Positions 732 to 33,985 of a stretch of DNA of 39,281 bases are shown one piece after another. Source of the DNA: a virus; IMG/VR virus record IMGVR_UViG_3300022925_000058, positions 1 to 39,281 of that record; one strand, given 5' to 3'. The translations under genes and the position numbers were made by a program. The notes beneath the pieces were generated by a model. It was not told where the DNA came from and did no database searches. It was given only the letters and a program-made list of their open reading frames with translations. The stretch's first letter is position 1. Every line of letters starts with the position of its first letter.

Positions 732-2609
732 TTAAGTTGTATTATCTATGTATACATACATACTTTGATATGTACTGTTATGTACGGACCCCGATACATT
801 AAAATTCATTCGCCAATAAACTGTTTCTTGTGAGCTAGACATACCTGTAAGTGTGCCCTGCCACATAAATGCGTATGTTCTAAATACTCCCGCATCTGCC
901 TCTACTACTGGTGATAAAGACACCCAAGTAGACCCATTAAAACTATATTGAAGGGTGCCATTTCTTACGTCTCCCAAAACAGCACTATATAAAACCTGAT
1001 ACGTTGCGCCATTTCTTACATTGTTTACTGTAATAGGTAGGTAAACGGCTTCAACACTATTTATCTGATCGCCTGGATAGCTTCCATTATACTGACTAGC
1101 ACTATTATAAACGGCTAAAGGTACTGTGCCTCCTGTTTGATTAAAAATGTCAGCACTTACATCAGCAAAGTGTTTTACATTTAATGTATCAACATTAATT
1201 CTTGCTGAATTAAGAAGCCCCGCATCTATTTTTGTAGCATTTAAGTTAGCTATTTTTGCATTATCAATAGTAGCATCAACTATTTTAGCGTTAGTAATTT
1301 GAGCATCGCCTATTTTAGCGTTAGTAATTTGAGCATCGCCTATCTTTGCTGTTTGAATAGTACCGTCTAAAATCTTTGCATTTGTTATAGCACCGTCTTG
1401 AATACGTGCACTATCAATAAAAACAGTGCCTCCACTTACAATAAAAGGTGCTGTACCAGAGGACCCATTCCAAATAGCAAACTTATCTGCTCTAAACTGC
1501 ACATACGATTGAGCCCCCGAACCACTACTTGCATTTGAACCAATAACCATACCAGCAGAAGAGACACTTCCGTTAGTTTCGGTAGCAACTTGTAATACGT
1601 ACATGGCATTAAGATCACCATTTATGTTAGCTGTTGTAGTATTTAAAGTACTTATAGAACTAGTATTGCCATTAACTGTACTAGTTAAATTAGTAACATT
1701 AGTAGCTGTAGCACTTTGGGCGTTTGTAACGGTAACAATATCGGACTGAGCTGTAGCCATAGCGGAAGTCAAAGTGCTCCCAGTGAAACTTGTGGTGCCA
1801 AATAAATTAACTAAGGTTGCATCGCGTCCTGCTACCCAAGCATTGTTTGCTACATTTCTTGTATAAATTTGACCATCATCTGTATCAAACCAAATATCGT
1901 TTGGTTGTAAAGGATCACCATTAGTTCTAGTGCTAGGTTGACTAGAACTCTTAATAATAGTCGCTGCTGTTGTACTTGTAGCTAATAAATTATACCCAGG
2001 TAAATCTGCTAGGGTTTCACTTAACTCGGTCATAACCGCTGCTATATCTTGCAGCGTTGTAGCTTCTGCCCCGTTGGTGTTGTTAAAAGGTCCCTGTACA
2101 TCAGATGTGCTTACATAACGCACCCAATAATAATATGTTTCTCCATAACCCACTTCATCGGTATAAATAAAAGCGGTTGTTGTAGCTCTTAGTGTAGCGC
2201 CAGCTAAATTATTATCTCTTGAGCGCCATATTTCTGTGTAAGCATGATTACCGTACGGAGCACTAGCACTTGTACCATTCCAATCTAATATAACTTGAGT
2301 AAAAACCCCTTCTGCTGTTAAAGATACCGGAGCGGGGGGTATAGATAAATCTCCCGGTCCAGCATCAGGGGGACCAAAATCGGTTGGTCCTAAGCCTGCG
2401 TTTGGATCAAAAGGATTATCTTTTAGTTTTACAGCAAGACCGCTATCAATTAATTCTCGTAAAGTTACTGCTCTGTCTATTGGGTCGCCAAGTTGTCCTA
2501 ACCTTATAGCAAGAGCTTCTTGCATAGCTTTTAAAGAACCCGCAAGTTCTTTGTCTACTTTAGCGGGGATTGGTTTTAGCCCCGGCAGTTTAGTACCAGT
2601 GGTAGCCAT
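732..2609 (-). CDS. Lambda gpJ-like central tail fibre protein
   Basis: A 625-residue protein. Residues about 90-190 look like a fibronectin type III domain (VILDWNGTSAS, YYYWVRYVS). Residues about 330-400 match the C-terminal pattern of lambda gpJ-type host specificity proteins (DUF1983): MYVLQVATETNG, FRADKFAIWNG, then GGTVFIDSARIQDGAITNAKI. A run of short repeats of the form I-x-D-A-x-I-x-N-A-K follows, probably a triple beta-helix or coiled stalk, and then a C-terminal beta-rich tip that may contact the receptor. AAGGA sits seven bases before the ATG, and the start overlaps the stop of the nozzle gene (TAATG). gpJ-like ends normally belong to long-tailed phages, so this is an unusual partner for a podovirus-like head. 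Confidence 0.7.
   Translation of the reverse strand: MATTGTKLPGLKPIPAKVDKELAGSLKAMQEALAIRLGQLGDPIDRAVTLRELIDSGLAVKLKDNPFDPNAGLGPTDFGPPDAGPGDLSIPPAPVSLTAEGVFTQVILDWNGTSASAPYGNHAYTEIWRSRDNNLAGATLRATTTAFIYTDEVGYGETYYYWVRYVSTSDVQGPFNNTNGAEATTLQDIAAVMTELSETLADLPGYNLLATSTTAATIIKSSSQPSTRTNGDPLQPNDIWFDTDDGQIYTRNVANNAWVAGRDATLVNLFGTTSFTGSTLTSAMATAQSDIVTVTNAQSATATNVTNLTSTVNGNTSSISTLNTTTANINGDLNAMYVLQVATETNGSVSSAGMVIGSNASSGSGAQSYVQFRADKFAIWNGSSGTAPFIVSGGTVFIDSARIQDGAITNAKILDGTIQTAKIGDAQITNAKIGDAQITNAKIVDATIDNAKIANLNATKIDAGLLNSARINVDTLNVKHFADVSADIFNQTGGTVPLAVYNSASQYNGSYPGDQINSVEAVYLPITVNNVRNGATYQVLYSAVLGDVRNGTLQYSFNGSTWVSLSPVVEADAGVFRTYAFMWQGTLTGMSSSQETVYWRMNFNVSGSVHNSTYQSMYVYIDNTT
1281..1340 (-). repeat. 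Exact 30-bp tandem duplication
   Basis: Bases 1281-1310 and 1311-1340 are identical. They encode two consecutive copies of the ten-residue unit IGDAQITNAK in the stalk of the gpJ-like protein, flanked by diverged copies (ILDGTIQTAK, IVDATIDNAK). Exact identity at DNA level points to a recent slippage or duplication event, and the copy number may vary among relatives. Confidence 0.95.
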
Positions 2610-4588
2610 TAAACGTTCCTTAATTCATCAATCGATTCACCAATACACACTTCATTAACTGTTTGTGCTGAGGATACTTCTATAGCAAAAGTACGATGTA
2701 CACTTGCTGGAAGTCTAACTATTGGTTCATATATAGTAGTAGCACTAAAGCTAGGTGTTGTACCTGTAACTGAATAAACACTGCCAGATGTGCTGATGAT
2801 GGCGTCGTATATTACAGAGCCATCTCCATAAACTTTAAGTGTTACAGGAAATGCTTCTGCATCTACTTTAGCAAAACCCATACTAGTTGGCTTTGCAGTT
2901 ACAAACTCTTTTGATTTCCAAGTAAAAGTATCGTTGGTTGTGCTGCCTTGGAATTTCTTAATATCATCATCAATAATAATATAAAGTTCATTATCATCAG
3001 GATCAGTAAAGCCTCCTGGTACTTCATTAGACTCACTTAATTCTGTAAAAGTAGAATCGCCGCCTCTAGGATCAAAAATAAATCCAGCATAAGCAGAACC
3101 GGTATAATAAAAACCAACATACCGGCCTTCCCATAAAAAACCTTTTATGGTTGCAGGGTAGTAGCTTGAACCCCATTGTTTTGGGTTAATTAAACCTTCG
3201 GTTAAAATTTTAACTTCAGCTCCTGATACTGCGACTAACCCATCTGGACCGGCGTACATAACATATTCACCCATATCCACCATAGAGTTTTTGCTTAGAC
3301 AAGCTTGTGCTGCTTCAATACGTATAGCACTCATAGATTGTGGATCGGTGCCCGCAATTAAATAAGGCGTACCTTTTGTGCCAACAATTAAACCATTACT
3401 TGTAACAGCTATAGCTACAACTTCTTCTTCAAGAGTTATACGATAAGCTGCAGGCCAAGCGTGAGGTAAGAAAGGTTCTGAAAAACAAACGCGTTTCCCA
3501 GTAAAACCAGCAAACACTCCATTAGGCATTGCAGCTAACCCTTTCATAGGACCATCGGGGTATAAACTAGTATCTTCGTTTGGTGGGCCAATCCAATAAG
3601 TAGAAGGAATAATTTCAGCTAAATCAGAGTTTGCAGAGGTATCTGTAAAAGATGTAGTTGCTAAAGTAACTTCGCCAACAAACTGAAAAGCGGTTGTATT
3701 AGAGCCAGTATTAGATCTGTATATACGTTTTTTAAGAAGATTAGTGTTTGTTCGACCGGTGCCCGAGGTACTTGTTTCAAGACCTGATATCGTTACCTTT
3801 CTATTATCATCCGTAGTTATAACAGTTGATGCAGCAGAAGGGGGTCCCTCTTCTCCGTAAGCACTAACAAATGTATACACATAAGAAGTACTAAAATCAA
3901 TCAAAGCGCTTGATTCATCATTAAACGAAGCGCCGTTTGCAATAGAGCTAGAGGTACCTGATGATGTAGCTGCGCTATTTACCTCAATTGTTAAGGTTGT
4001 TGTACTTGGTACACTTACAATTTTATGATCAATATTAATATCTGTAGCAGGTATACCGTTTACTGCACTAAAATTAGCGAGCTTTACATAGTCTCCTACT
4101 GAAGCCCCATGTACACTAACCGTGGTCACAGTTAAAACAGATGAACCGTTGATCGTGGTTATCGTAGCTTCAATCTGGGTTGGCGCTTCAAGGGCGACGG
4201 TCGGTGCTGCTGTAGGTGCGGGTATACCCAATCTGTAAAAATTACTAGGAAAAGGTTCAGACCCAACAATAACATCACTTCTACCCATACGTGGGTAAGA
4301 CTGTCCTGTCCAATAGACTGTATCATTTGTATCGCCAGCTATGGGACCTGGAACTACATCCACGTCCTCATCAAACTGTAACCACCTTTCCGGTGAGTCT
4401 GTGTATTTAAATATACTGGTTCTACTTGAATTACTTAATACAAGTGTTTGTGAGTCTTGAGTAATAGGGACAAGCCTGCCGCTGTCTAAGTTTACATCAA
4501 TGGCTGTTTGAGCTAAGTTATCTTTTAATAATCTAGGTGAGACTTGAGGAGCAAGTCCGCCAAACGTGATGAGTTTAAAATACGCCAT
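2609..4588 (-). CDS. Tail nozzle / tail tubular protein B-like
   Basis: The 659-residue beta-rich protein begins MAYFKLITFGGLAPQVSPRLL, a pattern typical of podovirus nozzle or stabilisation proteins (T7 gp12-like), which form the distal tube of the short tail. Residues about 135-215 hold an inserted domain (VHGASVGDYVKL, NFSAVNGIPATDIN) of a type frequent in phage tail proteins. The rest contains blade-like repeats such as GMGEYVMYAGPDG-type and GTPYLIAGTDP segments. It is shorter than T7 gp12 (about 790 residues). The start is one base after the preceding TGA, with no strong ribosome binding site. It lies far from the adaptor genes, next to the gpJ-like fibre it may carry. The function is inferred from pattern and context. 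Confidence 0.6.
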   Translation of the reverse strand: MAYFKLITFGGLAPQVSPRLLKDNLAQTAIDVNLDSGRLVPITQDSQTLVLSNSSRTSIFKYTDSPERWLQFDEDVDVVPGPIAGDTNDTVYWTGQSYPRMGRSDVIVGSEPFPSNFYRLGIPAPTAAPTVALEAPTQIEATITTINGSSVLTVTTVSVHGASVGDYVKLANFSAVNGIPATDINIDHKIVSVPSTTTLTIEVNSAATSSGTSSSIANGASFNDESSALIDFSTSYVYTFVSAYGEEGPPSAASTVITTDDNRKVTISGLETSTSGTGRTNTNLLKKRIYRSNTGSNTTAFQFVGEVTLATTSFTDTSANSDLAEIIPSTYWIGPPNEDTSLYPDGPMKGLAAMPNGVFAGFTGKRVCFSEPFLPHAWPAAYRITLEEEVVAIAVTSNGLIVGTKGTPYLIAGTDPQSMSAIRIEAAQACLSKNSMVDMGEYVMYAGPDGLVAVSGAEVKILTEGLINPKQWGSSYYPATIKGFLWEGRYVGFYYTGSAYAGFIFDPRGGDSTFTELSESNEVPGGFTDPDDNELYIIIDDDIKKFQGSTTNDTFTWKSKEFVTAKPTSMGFAKVDAEAFPVTLKVYGDGSVIYDAIISTSGSVYSVTGTTPSFSATTIYEPIVRLPASVHRTFAIEVSSAQTVNEVCIGESIDELRNV

Positions 4589-4589
4589 A

Positions 4590-4877
4590 TCATTTGAAAG
4601 TATACACGATTATGCTAACGATTCCTGCGAAGATAATCCAAAACGCCCTTTCAAACATGCTAACCCCCTTTGTATTTACTATGGCTTTTTGTTCAACAAT
4701 TTCTACTCTATCTTCTAAGCGGTCCATTCTTAAAATAAATCTGTCGTTTTGTTTTAACACCGTAGTTACTCGTTCCTCTATTCGAGCAATAGCTACTATT
4801 GCTTCAGAAAGTTTATCTATTTTACTATCTAGTTTATCTAACCTATTTGATACGTCGTCATTCACTTGTAGCTCCAT
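4590..4877 (-). CDS. XhlA-like tail-anchored membrane protein (lysis cassette)
   Basis: The 95-residue protein has a heptad-rich coiled coil (NRLDKLDSKIDKLSEAI, then DRLEDRVEIVEQK) and one C-terminal membrane segment (FWIIFAGIVSIIVYTF) ending in lysine. This is the architecture of XhlA-type proteins (PF10779), which act with holins in host lysis. The gene overlaps the end of the endolysin gene by 16 bases, supporting a lysis role. It could alternatively be a spanin component or an unrelated structural anchor. Confidence 0.6.
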   Translation of the reverse strand: MELQVNDDVSNRLDKLDSKIDKLSEAIVAIARIEERVTTVLKQNDRFILRMDRLEDRVEIVEQKAIVNTKGVSMFERAFWIIFAGIVSIIVYTFK

Positions 4878-5254
4878 ATATGTGGGCGCGGACGCATGGG
4901 TTCTTCTTCGAGCGTGTCGAGATGAATAAATCTGCTATCACCATGTTGTTTTACACCTAGACCCGTTATACCGTGTTTAAGGGCTACCTGAATAAGTTTT
5001 AAGGCGTCCTTTCCTCGTATAAGTATGTCTACTGCCTTGCCCGATGAATGAGCCCCTGGCTTAGATTTTTTAGCTTCTATAGGATGGGTCTTATCTCTAT
5101 ATCCACTACTGATAATAAAAGGTACCCCTACCTCTTCTCTTATTGTATCAAGTTTACGCATGAAGTCATCATCCATTTCGCATAAACCTGTATGTTTACA
5201 CTTTAATTCATCATGGGTAAAGTATTTCCAGTTATTTTTCTTTTTTCTCCACAT
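4862..5254 (-). CDS. Peptidase M15-family endolysin
   Basis: The 130-residue protein carries the hallmarks of zinc D,D-/L,D-peptidases of family M15: SSGYRD (residues 49-54), then PGAHSSGKAVDI with H69 and D76, then RFIHLD with H111, together the three expected zinc ligands. It would cleave peptide cross-links of peptidoglycan to lyse the host. There is no signal peptide, so export would depend on the neighbouring holin. It is at the usual length for a single-domain M15 endolysin. The ATG lies inside the end of the DUF6447-like gene (23-base overlap), with AGGAAG about 12 bases upstream. Confidence 0.85.
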   Translation of the reverse strand: MWRKKKNNWKYFTHDELKCKHTGLCEMDDDFMRKLDTIREEVGVPFIISSGYRDKTHPIEAKKSKPGAHSSGKAVDILIRGKDALKLIQVALKHGITGLGVKQHGDSRFIHLDTLEEEPMRPRPHIWSYK

Positions 5255-5483: not shown

Positions 5484-5969
5484 TTAATCTTCTTTTTTAT
5501 CAGGCGTGTTTGATGCCCCAAAATAAAATGATATCACAGCACTAGCTAGCCCGCCAAGGTATCCAAGAACTAAGTTAATTAAAGCTTCAGAATTTTGTTC
5601 TGGCGGTTGTAAGGTAACTAAAAAAATGTATCCAAGAAAACCACCAACTACAGCAGTTCCCATAATCCTCGCTGTCCAATCTCTTGAAAAACTACTTCTT
5701 GCTTGTTGTTTATCTTGTACTTCAAGCGCAAAGATATCTACTTCAAGTTCTTTCATTTGAACTTCAAAGTTTTGTTCTGCTCTTTTAAGTTGAAGCATTT
5801 GTTCAGGAGTTGCTTGTTGTATAGCTTGGTTAATTGCTTTTGGTTCTGGAGCACATCCCAAAACATCAGCAACAATAGAAGCTGCTTGACCACCCAAAGG
5901 GCCCCCTAAAGCAGACCCTAGTGTAGGAGCTAAAGCCCCCACTAAATTTTTTATTGCACCAAATTTCAT
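5484..5969 (-). CDS. Holin, GTA 3-TM type
   Basis: The 161-residue protein has a Gly/Ala-rich amphipathic N-terminus (residues about 8-38), a charged helical middle (EQMLQLKRAEQNFEVQMKE), and two C-terminal membrane segments (IMGTAVVGGFLGYIFLVTL and LINLVLGYLGGLASAVISFYF). This matches the holin family also found in gene transfer agents (PF11351), which opens the inner membrane for the endolysin. It is followed by the DUF6447-like and endolysin genes, consistent with a lysis cassette. A GGGG stretch in the preceding stop region serves as a weak ribosome binding site. Confidence 0.75.
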   Translation of the reverse strand: MKFGAIKNLVGALAPTLGSALGGPLGGQAASIVADVLGCAPEPKAINQAIQQATPEQMLQLKRAEQNFEVQMKELEVDIFALEVQDKQQARSSFSRDWTARIMGTAVVGGFLGYIFLVTLQPPEQNSEALINLVLGYLGGLASAVISFYFGASNTPDKKED

Positions 5970-5971
5970 AA

Positions 5972-6316
5972 TTACCCCGCTAATGGATTTTTTTCTTCAT
6001 TAATTTTAGATTCTATCTTTTGTACATCTTTTTGTAAGTTCATGTACTGTTCTTTTAAAATAGACCAATTGTTGGTGTTTTGATTAACAACCCCTTCTAA
6101 AATATTTATTTGCTCTAACTTTTTTAATTTTTGTTCCATAACAGAAATTTGTGTTACAAGGCTGTTAATGTCTTCTTCGTAAGAAACAGATGCTTGTGCC
6201 TCTAAGTTTTCAATTCTATTAACATAGGTTGCTCCTTGATAGCCAAAGCCAGCAAGGGTTGTAACAATTCCTACAAGAGCTATTAATTGCGTTGTTTTAT
6301 TTTCAAACCAATTCAT
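5972..6316 (-). CDS. Membrane-anchored coiled-coil protein, possible spanin or lysis regulator
   Basis: The 114-residue protein has one N-terminal membrane segment (LIALVGIVTTLAGFGYQGA, about residues 11-29) followed by a long coiled coil with heptads of Ile and Leu (ISVMEQKLKKLEQINILE, then YMNLQKDVQKIESKI). An N-in, C-out anchor with a periplasmic coiled coil resembles inner-membrane spanins (Rz-like). No nested or adjacent lipoprotein gene for an outer-membrane partner is visible, so this is tentative. AGGAT precedes the ATG. It leads into the holin and endolysin genes. Confidence 0.55.
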   Translation of the reverse strand: MNWFENKTTQLIALVGIVTTLAGFGYQGATYVNRIENLEAQASVSYEEDINSLVTQISVMEQKLKKLEQINILEGVVNQNTNNWSILKEQYMNLQKDVQKIESKINEEKNPLAG

Positions 6317-6324
6317 TTTTTATC

Positions 6325-8277
6325 CTACAAATTAGGTTGCATTGCTTTTAAGTTTACCAAAGTTTTTATGTTTTGGTTAAACAAACCGTTAAAAGCTGTT
6401 CTATTATCTAATAATGTATTGCTAGTATAAATGTTTTTTGACTCATACCAAAGCTTTTGATTGGGTATAGATAAAGCTCTGTAATCATTAAATCCAACAA
6501 CATACCCCATGTATGCAATAATTTTATCTTCTGATCCATACTCTCCTGTTTGTTCTTGTTTGTTTTTTATTTCGTTTTGAGCCTCTTGCATGTTTTTAGC
6601 AAGGATTTGATCTGCTATTTCATCTGAGTCTGATCTGCTGTTATTTGCGGATAAAGATGTATCAATTTGTACATCATTATTGACTGAAGATGTATTGCTA
6701 ATGTTACTAGCCATAGTTGTTGTGTCTGAAAAAGACTCATTTGATTCTGTAGAAACAGAAACGCTCATTTGTAAAACCTCATTGTTTTGTGCTGTTGAAG
6801 ATGCAAATTGATCTGAAATACTAGGTGAGTTGCTCATAGAAACACCGCCACCGCTTGATCCTGATGAATTAGATGAATTGTTTAAATTGTTGTCATCGTT
6901 TTGACTTGTACCACTTACACTGTTGTTGGCTGTTTTAATTGTAGATGAAACAACTCGCAATGCGACATCTCTAGTTAATGAACTCTTTGTATCTTTGTTT
7001 TCAACAAAAATTTCTTCAATGGTTTCTTCCTGCCTTTCTCTTTCTTCTCTAACTTCTGCAACTTGTTCCTCTATCTCTTCTTCGATAAATCTAGGCTCTA
7101 GTTCTTCTTCTATCACTTCTTCAAAAATGGGTTCAGGCTCTTCTTCTATTATTCTTTCAGGTTCAGGCAAGTTTTCTGCTAAAAAGGTTTCTTGAAAAAT
7201 AAATTCTTCAATCATAATTTCTTCACGAGGCAAAAATGTTTCTTCTTGTGCAATTTCAAATATTTCAATTGTTTCTATTGGCTCGGAAAAAGGTTGGGGT
7301 TCATTAAAAACTTGTTGTTGTGGCTCAAAAAATATTGGTTCTTCGTATGATTGCATAGGCTCTTCTATGTAGCCAAACTGTTGTTCTTCTTCTATAGGTG
7401 GGTTGCTGTAATTTTGTTCTTCTTGATATCCATAATCAATTTCTTCTTCTTGAAAATAAGCTACGGATTCTTCTTGTTTATAGCCTTTGCATGATGGAGA
7501 GTATTGAGGGTCAATGTCACATTGTTCATCATCATAAGCTTGCCAATATCCTGCACAACTAACATCATTTAGTGGGTTGCTACAATCAATAACCTCGCCA
7601 ACAAATAAAGAGCCACCGTTTTCTAAATTTTGATTTTTGTCTGAACTGTTCCAGTCATAGTTGTAACATTCTTTAGAATTGTATACTCCTGTATTGCACT
7701 CATCATGAAAATAATAAGTTTCAAACTCATCTTCTTTGCCTTGTATACCTATAAATACATCATGGTCTTGAATGTCTAGCTCGCCATAACGAGCCTCGTA
7801 GGTATCGTTAGGGTATAGCCAAAGCTCAAAAGTATTTTTTGAATCTCTGTAATATTCCCACATTTCATACCAACCAAATATAACCTTGTCATCAAAACTT
7901 TTGGCTAACATGGAAGAATTTTCTCCCATAATAAGGTCAGTCCAAAAAGGATATATTGTATAGTTGGTGTTGGGAGATGGGCTAGGATTATACTGTGTGC
8001 AGTTTTTCTCCCATGTGCTTGCTGTAGATAATGAGCCTAATATTAAACAACCATTGCTAGCCATGTAACCTTGGTTAAAAGTTTCGCCAAAAAAATTAAA
8101 GTCAAAGCCAAAGTTAAAAACCTGAGATGTGCCGTCATCACTTGCTGACATGTTGGTAGCATTTTCTAAGCGTAAATCCCAAATGGGTTTGTCTTGAATG
8201 AGGGTGACTGTTGTTTGGCTTAAAGCTGTAACACTAAACAGACACGCTATTGCGTAGCATAAAATTCTTTTTTGCAT
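6325..8277 (-). CDS. Secreted NIDO-like protein with a Glu-rich belt
   Basis: A 650-residue protein. Residues 1-20 form a signal peptide (KRILCYAIACLFSVTALS), probably cleaved by signal peptidase I. Residues about 50-185 resemble a nidogen-type (NIDO) or related extracellular domain: FNFGFDFNFFGETF, YMASNGCLILG, YPFWTDL, VFIGIQG. A Cys-containing stretch follows (C194, C204, C232, C241, C253, C263). Residues about 268-428 are extraordinarily rich in Glu with Pro and Ile, and about 445-570 in Ser and Asn. The C-terminal 80 residues look folded. The start overlaps the preceding secreted-protein gene by 31 bases and has no clear ribosome binding site. It may be a virion surface or periplasmic protein; the function is unknown. 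Confidence 0.6.
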   Translation of the reverse strand: MQKRILCYAIACLFSVTALSQTTVTLIQDKPIWDLRLENATNMSASDDGTSQVFNFGFDFNFFGETFNQGYMASNGCLILGSLSTASTWEKNCTQYNPSPSPNTNYTIYPFWTDLIMGENSSMLAKSFDDKVIFGWYEMWEYYRDSKNTFELWLYPNDTYEARYGELDIQDHDVFIGIQGKEDEFETYYFHDECNTGVYNSKECYNYDWNSSDKNQNLENGGSLFVGEVIDCSNPLNDVSCAGYWQAYDDEQCDIDPQYSPSCKGYKQEESVAYFQEEEIDYGYQEEQNYSNPPIEEEQQFGYIEEPMQSYEEPIFFEPQQQVFNEPQPFSEPIETIEIFEIAQEETFLPREEIMIEEFIFQETFLAENLPEPERIIEEEPEPIFEEVIEEELEPRFIEEEIEEQVAEVREERERQEETIEEIFVENKDTKSSLTRDVALRVVSSTIKTANNSVSGTSQNDDNNLNNSSNSSGSSGGGVSMSNSPSISDQFASSTAQNNEVLQMSVSVSTESNESFSDTTTMASNISNTSSVNNDVQIDTSLSANNSRSDSDEIADQILAKNMQEAQNEIKNKQEQTGEYGSEDKIIAYMGYVVGFNDYRALSIPNQKLWYESKNIYTSNTLLDNRTAFNGLFNQNIKTLVNLKAMQPNL

Positions 8278-9266
8278 TGTCTGTTGGTTTTAGTTTTTTT
8301 TGTATAGGTTTTTTTTACTAACCCAACCACATCTTTATTTATTTTTTCTCTTTTAGGATTTGCATCTTGTGTGCATTGTCTAATAAATTCTTTTTCTTTT
8401 TCGTCTGCATCGGGTCTTTTTGATGGGTTTTTTAACCAAGCTTGAGTTGCTTCGTCACCAATTTTGCCTTTATATGGACAAGGTGTGCCTGCCATTTCCA
8501 TAGCCTTAAATACTCTTTTGTCTTGGCAGAGTATGCTCACACTAGCCACTTTCATGCCAGTATCGTAAAGATACTTAGACAGTTTTAATCTTTCACAGTT
8601 TTCATCTGTGACTGTGCTTCCAGTTGAAAGACCAAACACCTGTCCTTGAAAAGCACCCGATCTACCTACAGTACATAAGTCTTGAGAATAACTCATAATA
8701 CTTGGTGCAATAGCAGAAGCAGGGGGTGCCTTACTTTTTACATTTTGATTAATGGTTTGAGTTGAGTTGGACTCATTAATATTTCTGTTGGTGTTATCAG
8801 AGGTTGAGTTATTAATATTTTTATTAGTGTTGTCCGTAACGACATTTGACTCAGACTCAGAAACATTCACATTCGTATTATTATTTGTGTTTACATTGTT
8901 GCTTGTTGAGCTAGAGGTATTTGTAACATTTTGATTTACGGTTGAATTTACATTTGATGTCGAAGTCGAAGTATTGACATTGGTGTTGTTGTTTGTGTTT
9001 ACATTGTTTGACGAAGAGCTACTGGTGCTATTGTTCGTGTTGATGTTTGTATTGTTGTTGGTGTTGGTGTTTGTGTTTGTGTTGTTATTGGTGTTAGTGT
9101 TTATGTTTGTGTTGTTGTTGGTGTTAGTGTTTGTGGTAACTGTGGTATTGATGGTTGTTAACCCATTATCTTCACAGTATTGAGTGCCTGCTGTGCAATC
9201 ACCAACTGGGTCAGCTTGGATCAATCCTATAAATAAAAATGGTATACAATATAAAAAACGTGCCAT
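8247..9266 (-). CDS. Secreted Asn/Thr-repeat protein with conserved C-terminal domain
   Basis: The 339-residue protein starts with a signal peptide (residues 1-18, FLYCIPFLFIGLIQA before DP). Residues about 38-175 are an Asn/Thr/Ser repeat tract (units such as NTNTNNNTN and NNVNTNNNTNVN), and residues about 190-339 form a Cys-containing, lysine-rich domain (LCTVGRSGAFQGQVFG, KLSKYLYDTGMKVASVSILCQDKRVF, GTPCPYKG). I recall this C-terminal pattern from other marine phage contigs, always without a function. It is paired with the NIDO-like gene, so the two may act together outside the cytoplasm. The ATG has only a weak GGAC upstream. Confidence 0.6.
   Translation of the reverse strand: MARFLYCIPFLFIGLIQADPVGDCTAGTQYCEDNGLTTINTTVTTNTNTNNNTNINTNTNNNTNTNTNTNNNTNINTNNSTSSSSSNNVNTNNNTNVNTSTSTSNVNSTVNQNVTNTSSSTSNNVNTNNNTNVNVSESESNVVTDNTNKNINNSTSDNTNRNINESNSTQTINQNVKSKAPPASAIAPSIMSYSQDLCTVGRSGAFQGQVFGLSTGSTVTDENCERLKLSKYLYDTGMKVASVSILCQDKRVFKAMEMAGTPCPYKGKIGDEATQAWLKNPSKRPDADEKEKEFIRQCTQDANPKREKINKDVVGLVKKTYTKKTKTNRQCKKEFYATQ
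8860..9140 (-). repeat. Low-complexity Asn/Thr minisatellite within a secreted-protein gene
   Basis: The plus strand shows imperfect GTGTT/TTGTTG units, densest from about 9030 to 9138, coding for alternating Asn and Thr. A second-order repeat (NNVNTNNNTNVN) occurs twice, around 8870-8900 and 8976-9010. The periodicity is the kind that expands and contracts by slippage, so length variation between related phages is likely. Confidence 0.85.
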
Positions 9267-9910: not shown

Positions 9911-11029
9911 TTATCTTGCTGTTGTTGGTATACCTGTTGATGTTACAAATGGATTTTCTGCAAATGCCATGTAGATCATTTTTTGACCGCTATGGTTTAT
10001 AGTACTTGTTCCGAAACTACCTAAAGCTCCCGGTCTTACTTTAAATCCATTGCTTAAAATATCAATTGCTTGGTCAGTTGCTTCTGCACCGGTTGTATTA
10101 GCACTAATTACTGTACCATTTGCATTAAAAGCTCTTCGCTTAGTATCATATATATACCAATTCCTTCCTCCTGTTTCAGTATTTTTAATCATTACAAAAG
10201 CAGGTGAAAATCCTGTATAGACAAACGGACCATTTAGCGATTCTCCATTTCCTATATAACTGCCAAACTTGCTGTAGCCTTGTTTTTCAGCAAAAGCGTA
10301 ACAGATATAATCGTTACCTGTGTCATTTACAAGTGCATCTCCTAAATATATATAAGTTGAAGTTGGAGCAACATACCCCGTATATTGAGCATTACTTATA
10401 GCATCAGAAGTATCTAAACGTAAGTATTCATTAGCACTATAAGCACTTGATGTTGTAACATGTTTTCCCATTACAACCCAACCACCTGTGGCATCTCGTT
10501 TTTTCATAATAGTAAGGTCTGGTGCCACGCCCAATCCATGTGTTAAGTTTGTTTGTTGATGTACTGTTATTTGATCAGCCCTGCCCGTGTAAGTAATAAT
10601 ACTAAAACCAGCATCTTGATTAACTTGATGTGTACTAGCATTAATGCAATTAGCTCCTGTGCCTGATGCTGAAACCGAAGTTGTCGTACCACCATTAGCT
10701 TTCCAAACCCAGTTTGCAAAAGTAGTTCCACCTGTATTTGTTCCTGAATCACCAGCCCCTAGAGTAACTCCATTTGTATCAAAGGATTGAACATATAAAG
10801 AACTTACAGTTCCTTCTGCCAAAGAGTCATTAGGATATATGTACTTGGTAGTTCCTCTACTTGAATCAGCTAAGTAATGATAATTTGAATTTGACCTAGT
10901 TTTATACCAATAAAGGTCAGGCTGCAAATCACTATTTCCGTCTAATGTAATGGAATTAGTAGTGCCAGTTCCAGTATAAGTAAAAGCCTGAAAATGTGCA
11001 GATGGGTCGTCTATATTTGTATAAGGCAT
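9911..11029 (-). CDS. DUF7483-like fibre or receptor-binding protein
   Basis: The 372-residue protein is rich in Thr, Gly, Asn and aromatic residues. It contains repeated modules: FQAFTYTGTGTTNSITL ... DLYWYKTR (start), GFSIITYTGRADQ ... LGVAPDLTIMKKRDATGGW (middle) and GPFVYTGFSPAFVMIKNTETGGRNW (end). It closes with QKMIYMAFAENPF. These modules are typical of a protein family frequent in marine phage fibre arrays (DUF7483-like). The modules probably form beta-sandwich units. It overlaps the lectin gene stop by one base (TAATG), with GGAG upstream. Function in host contact is inferred from context. Confidence 0.65.
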   Translation of the reverse strand: MPYTNIDDPSAHFQAFTYTGTGTTNSITLDGNSDLQPDLYWYKTRSNSNYHYLADSSRGTTKYIYPNDSLAEGTVSSLYVQSFDTNGVTLGAGDSGTNTGGTTFANWVWKANGGTTTSVSASGTGANCINASTHQVNQDAGFSIITYTGRADQITVHQQTNLTHGLGVAPDLTIMKKRDATGGWVVMGKHVTTSSAYSANEYLRLDTSDAISNAQYTGYVAPTSTYIYLGDALVNDTGNDYICYAFAEKQGYSKFGSYIGNGESLNGPFVYTGFSPAFVMIKNTETGGRNWYIYDTKRRAFNANGTVISANTTGAEATDQAIDILSNGFKVRPGALGSFGTSTINHSGQKMIYMAFAENPFVTSTGIPTTAR

Positions 11030-12501
11030 TATCCGTACTCCGCTAAGTTTTTAGTGCATAAGGCGTAGTAGCCTGATGGGGGTGCATATTCAAAAGTTCC
11101 GTAGCCATTGGCATCTGTGTTGCCTGATGCGATTGAAAATCCAGAAAAGCCACCAAAGTTTGCTTCTGCATTTCCACCATTGTTGTAGGGTGAAGCTGCA
11201 AAACTTATTGCTAAATTATTAGGCAAAGGACTTCCAGAGTTCATATCAAAATTATTTGCACCAGTTTCAGGATTTGAACTGTTTGCCCAAGTTCCATTTG
11301 TTCCAAAATAAAGAGATACTACTCCACTTGTTTTATAATCTACAGCAACCATAATAATAGTTCCTGCTGGAAAACTTGATCCCCAAGCAGTGCTGCCATT
11401 GTTTGTATATACATTACCATTTGCATTATAAAAACCCATAGTATAAGCGGTTGAGTTTGATACACCGCCTAAATGAGTATTGTTCCAAGATTCTTCACTA
11501 TCTACCTGAGATACCCCTGCCATCATATTTGTTATGCCACTACCAAGTCTAAATTCTGCATACCATTTGCCTTTTGTAAAAGCAATGCTACCAACATTAG
11601 AATACCAACCAACTTGTCCTGAAAGATTGTAATGAGTAGCACCATTTCTAATTACAGCATAAGGTTGACCAGTTAAAACCTGCCAAGTAGCAAAATTATT
11701 AGTAGGTGTGTCCGTTGCTTGGTTTGCGGATGTGATGTTGTTTAGGGTGAAGTTTACATCGTTGCCTTTAGCGTTTCCACCTAAGTCTGATGCAATTTCA
11801 AAATCTAAGAAAAAAGAATTGTTACCTGTTCCATAATTTAAACCACTTATATCTTTAGGTTTCCAAATACCTGTATCTTCATCAAACTTACCAAACTCTG
11901 TAGGTGCTAAAGACTCCCCATCTACTAATGCACATTGAGCTGCATAACCTGCATAAATACCATCGTTGTTAGCCCAAGAATAGTTGCCGATTGCCATTTG
12001 TTGTTGACCGCCTAAACTTGATTTATTGGCAGTTGTGTCTGTATTTTGTGGAAAAGTTGCTGTTTGTTCAAAATCATCTGCTGTAAGCAATACTCCATTT
12101 ACATACATTCTCATCCTATCAGTGGCTGTGCTTTGAGTTGTATCAACTCTCCAAACAAAATGATACCAAGCAGAGGTATCTCTAAATAATCTCTTAGTAA
12201 TCCATCTATATTGAGTAGTTGCTTCACTGGCTAAATCAATAGTTAATTTGTCCATGTCTGAACCAGCATCAAAAAATATTCTTGTTGCTTGATGATAAAC
12301 ACCAGCATAAAAAAGTAACATTCCGTTAGACATTCCTAGCTCGGTTCTTTTAACCCACATACTATATGTCCAAGTTTTTCTATTACCATCTGCTTGATTT
12401 CTTTTTAAAAACTCAGCATTATCAGGCTCAAGTTTTACAGAGTTTGCAATATCAAATCCTCCTGATACGGAGTTAGTTCCTGATAAAGCAAGTAAGGACA
12501 T
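11029..12501 (-). CDS. LamG / SPRY-like lectin fibre protein
   Basis: A 490-residue protein with two apparent carbohydrate-binding style folds. The N-terminal half (about 25-225) resembles a concanavalin A-like LamG domain: TWTYSMWVKRTEL, WYHFVWRVDTT, MRMYVNGVLL, then MAIGNYSW. The C-terminal half (about 265-480) resembles a SPRY-like domain: GWYSNVGSIAFTKGKWYAEF, TIIMVAVDYKTSGVVSLYFG. Such modules bind surface glycans or proteins, so this is a good candidate for a receptor-binding component. It is coupled by TAATG overlaps to genes on both sides. I infer the domains from characteristic phrases, not from a search. Confidence 0.7.
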   Translation of the reverse strand: MSLLALSGTNSVSGGFDIANSVKLEPDNAEFLKRNQADGNRKTWTYSMWVKRTELGMSNGMLLFYAGVYHQATRIFFDAGSDMDKLTIDLASEATTQYRWITKRLFRDTSAWYHFVWRVDTTQSTATDRMRMYVNGVLLTADDFEQTATFPQNTDTTANKSSLGGQQQMAIGNYSWANNDGIYAGYAAQCALVDGESLAPTEFGKFDEDTGIWKPKDISGLNYGTGNNSFFLDFEIASDLGGNAKGNDVNFTLNNITSANQATDTPTNNFATWQVLTGQPYAVIRNGATHYNLSGQVGWYSNVGSIAFTKGKWYAEFRLGSGITNMMAGVSQVDSEESWNNTHLGGVSNSTAYTMGFYNANGNVYTNNGSTAWGSSFPAGTIIMVAVDYKTSGVVSLYFGTNGTWANSSNPETGANNFDMNSGSPLPNNLAISFAASPYNNGGNAEANFGGFSGFSIASGNTDANGYGTFEYAPPSGYYALCTKNLAEYG

Positions 12502-32932: not shown

Positions 32933-33985
32933 CTATATACCAAAGTCACCACGCATTCTTCGCAAAGTTTCTTCTGGAAGCGCACTAAACTCATCGTCAG
33001 ATAACGTATTTAAATTTATTTTTTTATCACCTTTAGCAGATTCCCCTTTCATTGTAGGTGGTTGCGACTCAGCAGCTTGTAGTTTTTTATTAATATTGGC
33101 TACTTTTTGCTTCTCAACAACTTGCTCATCTGCTTTTGGGGCTTGTTTTTCTGGTATAGGATTTAATAATTCTGGTTTTTTTGCTGCTAAAGTGTAATTA
33201 GTAGCTTTTTCTAGGGCATCTGGGCCTGTAAAACCTTGTACCATAAATGCATCACGCAAATCTAACACTTCTTGAGTCAAATCAGCATCAAAATTAGCAC
33301 TGTTTTCATCTAAAACAGGATATTGGGCTTGTATTTCGTTTGCTTTTTGCTGTAAAGCGGTCATTTCTTGACTTTGTTGCACTGTTTGGCCCATTTGTTG
33401 TTGTACTTCAAACATAAATTGGGCTTTTTCAGCATTTCTGATCTCATTTCTAAGTTCTACAGCTTTTTCTGCTTCGCCATTTAATACTAATTCCTGATAT
33501 TCAGCTTCTTTAGTTGCAAAATCATACTCTGGGAGTTCTTTTGCGGCCTCTTGTTTTGCTTGGGTTGCCTCATCTAGTTGTTTTTGTAGTGCTTTTTGTT
33601 TTGCAAGCACTTCATCTAACCTAGATTTTGGCACCATAGGCGCTTTTGGTTGTTCTATTTCTTGGGAAACGTTTTCATCGCTTCCTTCAATTGGTTGAAT
33701 ATCTGGTTGTGCATCTGCTTCGCTGTTTTCATCCATTCCTTCTTCGCTAACAGCTTCTGGCTCTGCAGGTGCTTCTTCTTCCTCTGATGTTTCAGGTTCT
33801 TTTTCAGCAACTTCTTCTTCTGCAGAAGCGTCAGTTTCTTCCGTGACTTCTTCATTATCAGATTCCTCTTCTTCTACTGTTTCAAAATTAAGGTCCACTT
33901 CAAACTTAGTGTCCTCCTGTTTAATGGGCTCACCTCCCGGCATAGCGTCCATAATCATTTCATTGGTTTCTTCTTTTTTAGCCAT
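32933..33985 (-). CDS. Capsid scaffolding protein
   Basis: The 350-residue protein is highly acidic in residues about 25-115 (EEEESDNEEVTEETDASAEEE), then has PMVPKSRLDEVLAKQKALQKQL, a coiled-coil region, and an Ala/Gln-rich C-terminal half with a short basic-hydrophobic end (EETLRRMRGDFGI). This is the layout of phage scaffolding proteins, which assemble the procapsid and leave or are cleaved later. A strong AAGGAGG precedes the ATG. The gene lies between portal and capsid genes, the standard place. No protease domain is present. Confidence 0.8.
   Translation of the reverse strand: MAKKEETNEMIMDAMPGGEPIKQEDTKFEVDLNFETVEEEESDNEEVTEETDASAEEEVAEKEPETSEEEEAPAEPEAVSEEGMDENSEADAQPDIQPIEGSDENVSQEIEQPKAPMVPKSRLDEVLAKQKALQKQLDEATQAKQEAAKELPEYDFATKEAEYQELVLNGEAEKAVELRNEIRNAEKAQFMFEVQQQMGQTVQQSQEMTALQQKANEIQAQYPVLDENSANFDADLTQEVLDLRDAFMVQGFTGPDALEKATNYTLAAKKPELLNPIPEKQAPKADEQVVEKQKVANINKKLQAAESQPPTMKGESAKGDKKINLNTLSDDEFSALPEETLRRMRGDFGI

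Follow-up and report, generated by a model that had tools for sequence, protein, structure and literature searches.

A conserved envelope cassette of three genes in marine phages and its plausible role in lysis

Among the described systems that come closest to the locus reported here are the spanins, the T4 antiholin RI and the curli cassette of pelagiphages. According to a spanin survey, phages without spanins exist, and proteins with other anchors could act (PMC6139136); the main text of that survey names neither Pelagibacter nor HTVC phages. T4 RI is reported to have a cleavable signal peptide and to act in the periplasm (PMC8385771). A curli secretion cassette is reported to have passed between families of pelagiphages (PMC9599517). 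For HTVC027P infection, time-resolved expression has been reported (PMC12753301).

An earlier note on the present DNA had described an overlapping pair of exported phage genes, here called A and B. That reading is partly supported: the pair is incomplete, since a third gene, C, belongs to it, and the resulting cassette is often located near lysis genes, a link that the note did not consider. What was found thus goes beyond the first description: a conserved three-gene envelope cassette for which a role in lysis is plausible but unproven. A search of the open-licence literature on pelagiphage spanins, virion proteomics, NIDO domains in phages and lysis modules found no description of an A-B-C cassette, and standard annotation leaves its genes as hypothetical proteins.

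Domain layout of the three genes

The window, that is, the whole stretch of 39,281 nucleotides that was analysed, is IMG/VR virus record IMGVR_UViG_3300022925_000058, positions 1 to 39,281. Its minus strand carries the main genes, running from terminase, portal, capsid, tail and tail-fibre genes to A, B and C; 3′ of C come a holin-like gene, an M15 endolysin and then more virion genes. The overlapping pair is present as proposed, with A and B both on the minus strand and sharing 31 nt. The features of the cassette and its lysis-type neighbours are as follows.

8247..9266, minus strand: gene A, 339 aa; signal peptide, Asn/Thr/Ser tract, four-Cys helical domain, basic C-terminus
9213..9266, minus strand: A signal peptide, residues 1-18, predicted by a homemade rule
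8733..9158, minus strand: A Asn/Thr/Ser-rich tract, about residues 37-178
9032-9132: 30-bp tandem repeat array, part of the A Asn/Thr/Ser tract
8412..8699, minus strand: A conserved Cys domain, about residues 190-285, mostly helical in the model
6325..8277, minus strand: gene B, 650 aa; signal peptide, NIDO-like head, Cys repeat, Glu belt, conserved tail
8218..8277, minus strand: B signal peptide, about residues 1-20, predicted by the same kind of homemade rule
7588..8214, minus strand: B NIDO-like beta-sandwich head, residues 22-230; pLDDT block means 61-95
7480..7584, minus strand: B Cys repeat of the form GYxxAYxxxQC
6958..7473, minus strand: B Glu/Pro belt, about residues 269-440; low pLDDT, partly helical
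6325..6570, minus strand: B C-terminal tail with a WYxxxxIY....DN motif, conserved
5972..6316, minus strand: gene C, 114 aa; N-terminal membrane helix, coiled coil, C-terminal NPLAG
5484..5969, minus strand: putative holin-like protein, 161 aa, phrog_1544; so labelled from its membrane helices and position
4862..5254, minus strand: M15 peptidase endolysin

Some further genes of the window are of note. Directly after the endolysin, 4590-4877 encodes a small coiled-coil membrane protein with a weak match to the hemolysin family phrog_937. At 2609-4588, after the lysis genes, is an internal virion protein gene that matches only positions 319-861 of the 862 of phrog_511. Two adjoining genes at 9911-12501 match consecutive parts of phrog_19943, a 1227-residue virion protein family, as if one tail protein had been split in two. 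Between the portal and capsid genes, 32933-33985 encodes a second acidic protein (43 E per 160 residues) with no PHROG match, whose position suggests a scaffolding protein.

The Asn/Thr tract noticed earlier in A stands far above control values, since its richest 100 residues contain 72 N or T, against 36 in the next window protein and a maximum of 30 in 300 random draws from the pooled composition. Among the rows sampled, this Asn/Thr/Ser arm mostly measures about 150-280 residues in relatives grouped with the window, against 34-85 in the HTVC group. The four Cys positions of the following domain were common to all 11 A domains first aligned; in a later set of 32, two of the Cys were lost in two near-identical rows. 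A matches phrog_20531 (E 2.6e-15), a family with no assigned function that covers A and not the cassette. A profile search of the A domain against PDB sequences was empty at E 5, a Foldseek search with its mostly helical model (mean pLDDT 70) gave no useful match among solved structures, and a fold search of viral models returned the domain's own family only. Across 84,980 bacterial and archaeal species, one genome each, A was found at only 14 loci (13 in records titled as MAGs, one in an uncultured isolate assembly), so that A looks like a phage family.

The 160-residue Glu-rich belt of B is likewise borne out, with 54 E in its best 160 residues compared with at most 26 in random draws. The two B groups have median densities of 55 and 55.5 E per 160 residues, whereas 501 other ORFs have a median of 13 and a 95th percentile of 25. 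The structural model is fairly confident for the head and not for the belt, which resembles a long acidic Pro/Glu linker and looks periplasm-crossing. For the suggestion that these proteins bind calcium or other cations outside the cell, we found no specific support, given this linker-like character. Seawater already holds millimolar calcium and magnesium, which also counts against it, and we gave the idea no weight.

The NIDO-like domain ascribed to the B head stood as a remote likeness and not as a family assignment. PF06119 (NIDO) was matched by 3 of 34 aligned B relatives (best E 2.2e-4), with a best score of 21.7 bits where the curated cutoff is 25, and window B itself had no Pfam match even at E 1. 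The B family profile also matches the N-terminus of RemA (8gl6 chain D, E 7.7e-15), which we take to be a gliding adhesin; with the sub-cutoff matches, this makes "NIDO-like" a fair but remote label. With the head model, Foldseek found no match at E 0.001 and the best VIA-align hit (Z 4.9) was not significant; an NCBIfam scan gave no useful match, and tblastn with window B found nothing among phage records.

B heads differ by phage group, being either NIDO-like or weakly CBM_4_9-like, and the 22-residue Cys repeat differs in copy number among relatives. The motif [FW]Y....[IL]Y, picked after the alignments had been inspected, lies near the C-terminus of 50/50 and 29/30 complete B proteins in two sets and occurs in 4/6 named HTVC-type records, compared with 18/644 other ORFs. 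This count is stronger sequence evidence for a relation between the two B tail types than their hhalign comparison, which was weak (probability 15.8%). At the sequence level, the B head is swapped between phage groups, with the belt and tail motif persisting.

C is recognised by its N-terminal membrane helix, coiled coil and ending. In 73 complete candidates chosen without using the motif, 72 end in NPL or NPM (46/47 and 26/26 in two sets of relatives), as do all 41 from a scan started with C. The 26 aligned C rows, two of them supplied by HTVC115P (one without the motif), share almost nothing except the ending, which is NPL or NPM in 25. A second membrane coiled-coil protein of HTVC115P, gp49 (L004 10541-10966), ends ENPLSNMK, alongside the HTVC115P C that lacks the NPL motif.

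Export, linkage and spread of the cassette

Signal peptides were called by a homemade rule combining hydrophobicity and a cleavage site, rather than by SignalP, and window A and window B both pass it, as the earlier note had proposed. Loss of the signals in homologues would have spoken against that proposal; most A and B relatives retain them. In the first IMG/VR scan (80 loci kept of at least 594, window included), 61/69 A and 48/61 B proteins pass, and in the second (80 loci kept of at least 599), 63/77 and 36/38; among other genes of at least 150 aa the background is 22/395. Export of A and B is therefore well supported. Three loci (L205, L208 and L210) have a C identical to the window's and an A with a different N-terminal signal sequence, which suggests recombination at the start of A.

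Conservation of the gene neighbourhood in marine phages was confirmed and extended, in that the A-B pair recurs with C as a third gene. The two IMG/VR scans confirmed at least 594 and at least 599 relatives in marine viral contigs, of which 80 loci each were retained. In a survey started from A, B and C come next in most contigs with room for them; across its 92 sources the search pattern missed A in 10 (L009, L011 and eight IMG loci), B was missed in some, such as HTVC115P, whose annotated B start lacks a signal peptide, and some starts or ORFs are probably wrong (for example L008, L050-L052 and L086). A search started from C found 190 relatives, and B and A precede C in order in 30/30 loci with at least 3.3 kb before C, a figure drawn from 41 of 80 loci, many of them near-identical contigs.

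Among 50,697 phage records, tblastn with A found 11, of which six are SAR11 phages and two are Roseobacter phages. Downstream of A, the SAR11 records encode a long Glu-rich protein, although none of them is matched by window B at the sequence level; this protein begins signal-peptide-like in 5/6, the exception being the annotated start in HTVC115P. The gene after it encodes a small coiled-coil protein that has a membrane helix at its N-terminus and ends in NPL in 5/6. The Roseobacter phages keep A and C and have a different middle protein, and Baldr has an extra 62-aa gene between A and B. The full order occurs in unrelated phages, SAR11 podoviruses and a T4-like SAR11 phage among them; Mosig EXVC030M (Kyanoviridae) is one carrier. 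Judged from sequence, A-B-C is a three-gene cassette common to many otherwise different marine phages.

Lysis-gene neighbourhood and the spanin question

The cassette lies often, not always, beside holin-like, endolysin or Rz/Rz1 genes. A lysis-type homologue (holin-like, endolysin or spanin) was present within 3 kb in 28/35 loci of a first set and 8/17 of a second, counts that are partly circular because some of the lysis queries were drawn from these same loci. Holin-like genes were the commonest such neighbour (26/35); terminase was near the cassette in 3/35 loci, and portal or capsid in 0/35. PHROG matches of all 85 listed downstream proteins (37 loci) were led by the endolysin phrog_7 (19), and the Rz-like spanins phrog_812 and phrog_739 were found 12 times each. 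Upstream, where 99 of 148 listed proteins were scanned, an endonuclease family was commonest (20/99), and holin-like families (phrog_10198 and phrog_1544), phrog_38283 and endolysin were also present.

Six of the nine named records have a lysis-type gene close by: Mosig, HTVC033P, HTVC023P, ctXG6705, S28-C10 and CRP-207, the last counted through its own query. In Baldr, HTVC202P and HTVC115P, the lysis genes are many kilobases from the cassette. CRP-207 gp72 (L008 3870-4226), adjoining the cassette, is a holin-like membrane protein with an EF-hand-like DxDGDG stretch, and L084 8508-9014 has a similar stretch. HTVC115P gp46 (L004 13243-13692), a few kilobases after the cassette, is annotated as a toxin-activating lysine-acyltransferase.

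Canonical Rz/Rz1 genes lie beside the cassette in 9/35 relatives. In L020, L032, L033, L041, L044, L045, L046 and L067 they stand between C and the endolysin, the cassette being otherwise the same. C has the layout of an i-spanin, an N-terminal membrane helix plus a coiled coil, which is a common layout. A comparison of 26 C with 8 Rz of related loci by hhalign showed no profile similarity (probability 9.7%), and phrog_739 was matched by 3 of the 26 C, the SbcC-like phrog_77, another coiled-coil family, by 6. A plain replacement of spanins, which we considered, is weakened by the nine relatives with Rz/Rz1 and by the dissimilarity of C and Rz.

No convincing o-spanin emerged from the SAR11 genomes covered by a lipobox scan, a homemade pattern applied to eight genomes (the window, Baldr, HTVC202P, HTVC033P, HTVC023P outside 58001-60878, S28-C10 outside 39001-40866, HTVC115P and CRP-207; Mosig, CRP-810 and two Manatee Spring records were left out). 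Plausible lipoproteins were found in CRP-207, and candidates elsewhere looked antisense or out of frame; the sole one in the window is an antisense ORF at 12046-12189. Baldr has a 54-aa ORF with an FLGC site that the pattern missed. The o-spanin family phrog_812 was matched by 0/12 carrier records, and window A and B have cleavable-type signal peptides with no lipobox, unlike an o-spanin. With no lipoprotein and no C-Rz homology, the cassette is not a spanin by the defining features of one; it may still act like a spanin.

A putative envelope structure and known systems

The export of two of the proteins, the membrane anchor of the third with its coiled coil, and the joint retention of all three point to an envelope structure; A and B are better read as proteins of the cell envelope than of the virion. 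Our leading interpretation, which we hold tentatively and at somewhat less than an even chance, is that A-B-C forms a structure across the envelope of the infected Gram-negative cell and that this structure is used at or near lysis. C would sit in the inner membrane through its N-terminal helix and extend its coiled coil into the periplasm, ending in the conserved NPL tail. A and B would be exported through Sec. A would place a small domain with disulphide bonds in the periplasm, tethered by its long, flexible Asn/Thr arm, and B would contribute a glycan- or protein-binding beta-sandwich head with an extended acidic belt and a conserved tail. Given that layout of head, belt and tail, B could bridge the inner-membrane side to peptidoglycan or the outer membrane. 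The three proteins would bind each other, span the periplasm and, after holin and endolysin have acted, breach or loosen the outer membrane.

A role in opening the outer membrane is suggested by the nearness of lysis genes and by the lack of a phrog_812 match in 12/12 carrier records. Lysis is no more than the leading reading, because Rz/Rz1 lies beside the cassette in 9/35 relatives and three isolates carry the cassette apart from their lysis genes; an adhesin-like head, too, is not an obvious lysis part and counts against it. The stronger proposal, that A-B-C is a lipoprotein-free, three-protein machine for breaching the outer membrane, exchanged as a unit between unrelated marine phages with interchangeable heads and accounting for how some phages that lack recognisable spanins open that membrane, we consider improbable as it stands.

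Close behind the lysis reading comes superinfection exclusion or surface adhesion, a serious rival though less likely than not, in which A and C would anchor B, and the B head would be exposed on the outer face of the infected cell or would block entry in the periplasm. Heads would then be swapped as receptors and rivals change, and the observed exchange of heads between phage groups, the resemblance of the B head to the RemA N-terminus, the sharing of the cassette by unrelated phages of the same host and its separation from lysis genes in three isolates all suit this idea. So does the reported transfer of a curli cassette between pelagiphage families (PMC9599517). Holin-like, endolysin and spanin genes are nevertheless frequently close, and no outer-membrane exporter was recognised in the cassette. 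Known exclusion proteins, moreover, are usually small.

Quite unlikely, in our estimate, is a role in lysis timing, in which A or B would sense the envelope from the periplasm in the manner of an antiholin and regulate C or the neighbouring holin-like protein. The model would be T4 RI, which is reported to be periplasmic (PMC8385771) and acts on holin T. The exported domain of A is small, mostly helical and Cys-bearing, and no other lysis-type neighbour is as common as the holin-like genes (26/35); yet the searches turned up no sequence or fold match of A to a solved structure, and the size and belt of B are left unexplained. That A, B and C are virion components, such as tail or receptor-binding parts with incidental signal-peptide-like starts, is very unlikely: in the window, tail-fibre and tail-fibre-assembly-like genes precede the cassette, and the B head could bind a receptor, but the A and B signal peptides are conserved in relatives far above background, the membrane helix of C is conserved as well, and Cys-rich A and B suit an oxidising compartment (the open-licence literature yielded no virion proteomics of a carrier phage).

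If exclusion or adhesin display were true, the cassette would be a widespread host-surface system of ocean phages. As a conserved exported cassette in abundant marine phages, it is also a specific, small candidate for a lysis role. The envelope-spanning layout predicted for A-B-C, often near holin and endolysin genes, recalls Rz/Rz1 and the unimolecular spanins, and both include a type II inner-membrane protein with a coiled coil, here C. In contrast to spanins, A-B-C consists of three proteins, has no recognised lipoprotein and includes a beta-sandwich head of large size; C does not resemble the Rz of related loci, and some relatives carry Rz/Rz1 as well. By profile, the B head resembles NIDO (PF06119) and the start of RemA (8gl6), including its DD...NG and FW.DL stretches, but it falls below the Pfam cutoff, and B continues into a Glu belt and a tail motif specific to phages. 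With T4 RI and holin T the cassette shares a small exported periplasmic protein beside membrane lysis proteins, whereas no sequence or fold match to A was found. The pelagiphage curli (T8SS) cassette is likewise a multi-gene envelope or surface cassette common to unrelated marine phage families; it differs in its reported alphaproteobacterial origin (PMC9599517), whereas A is nearly absent from cellular genomes.
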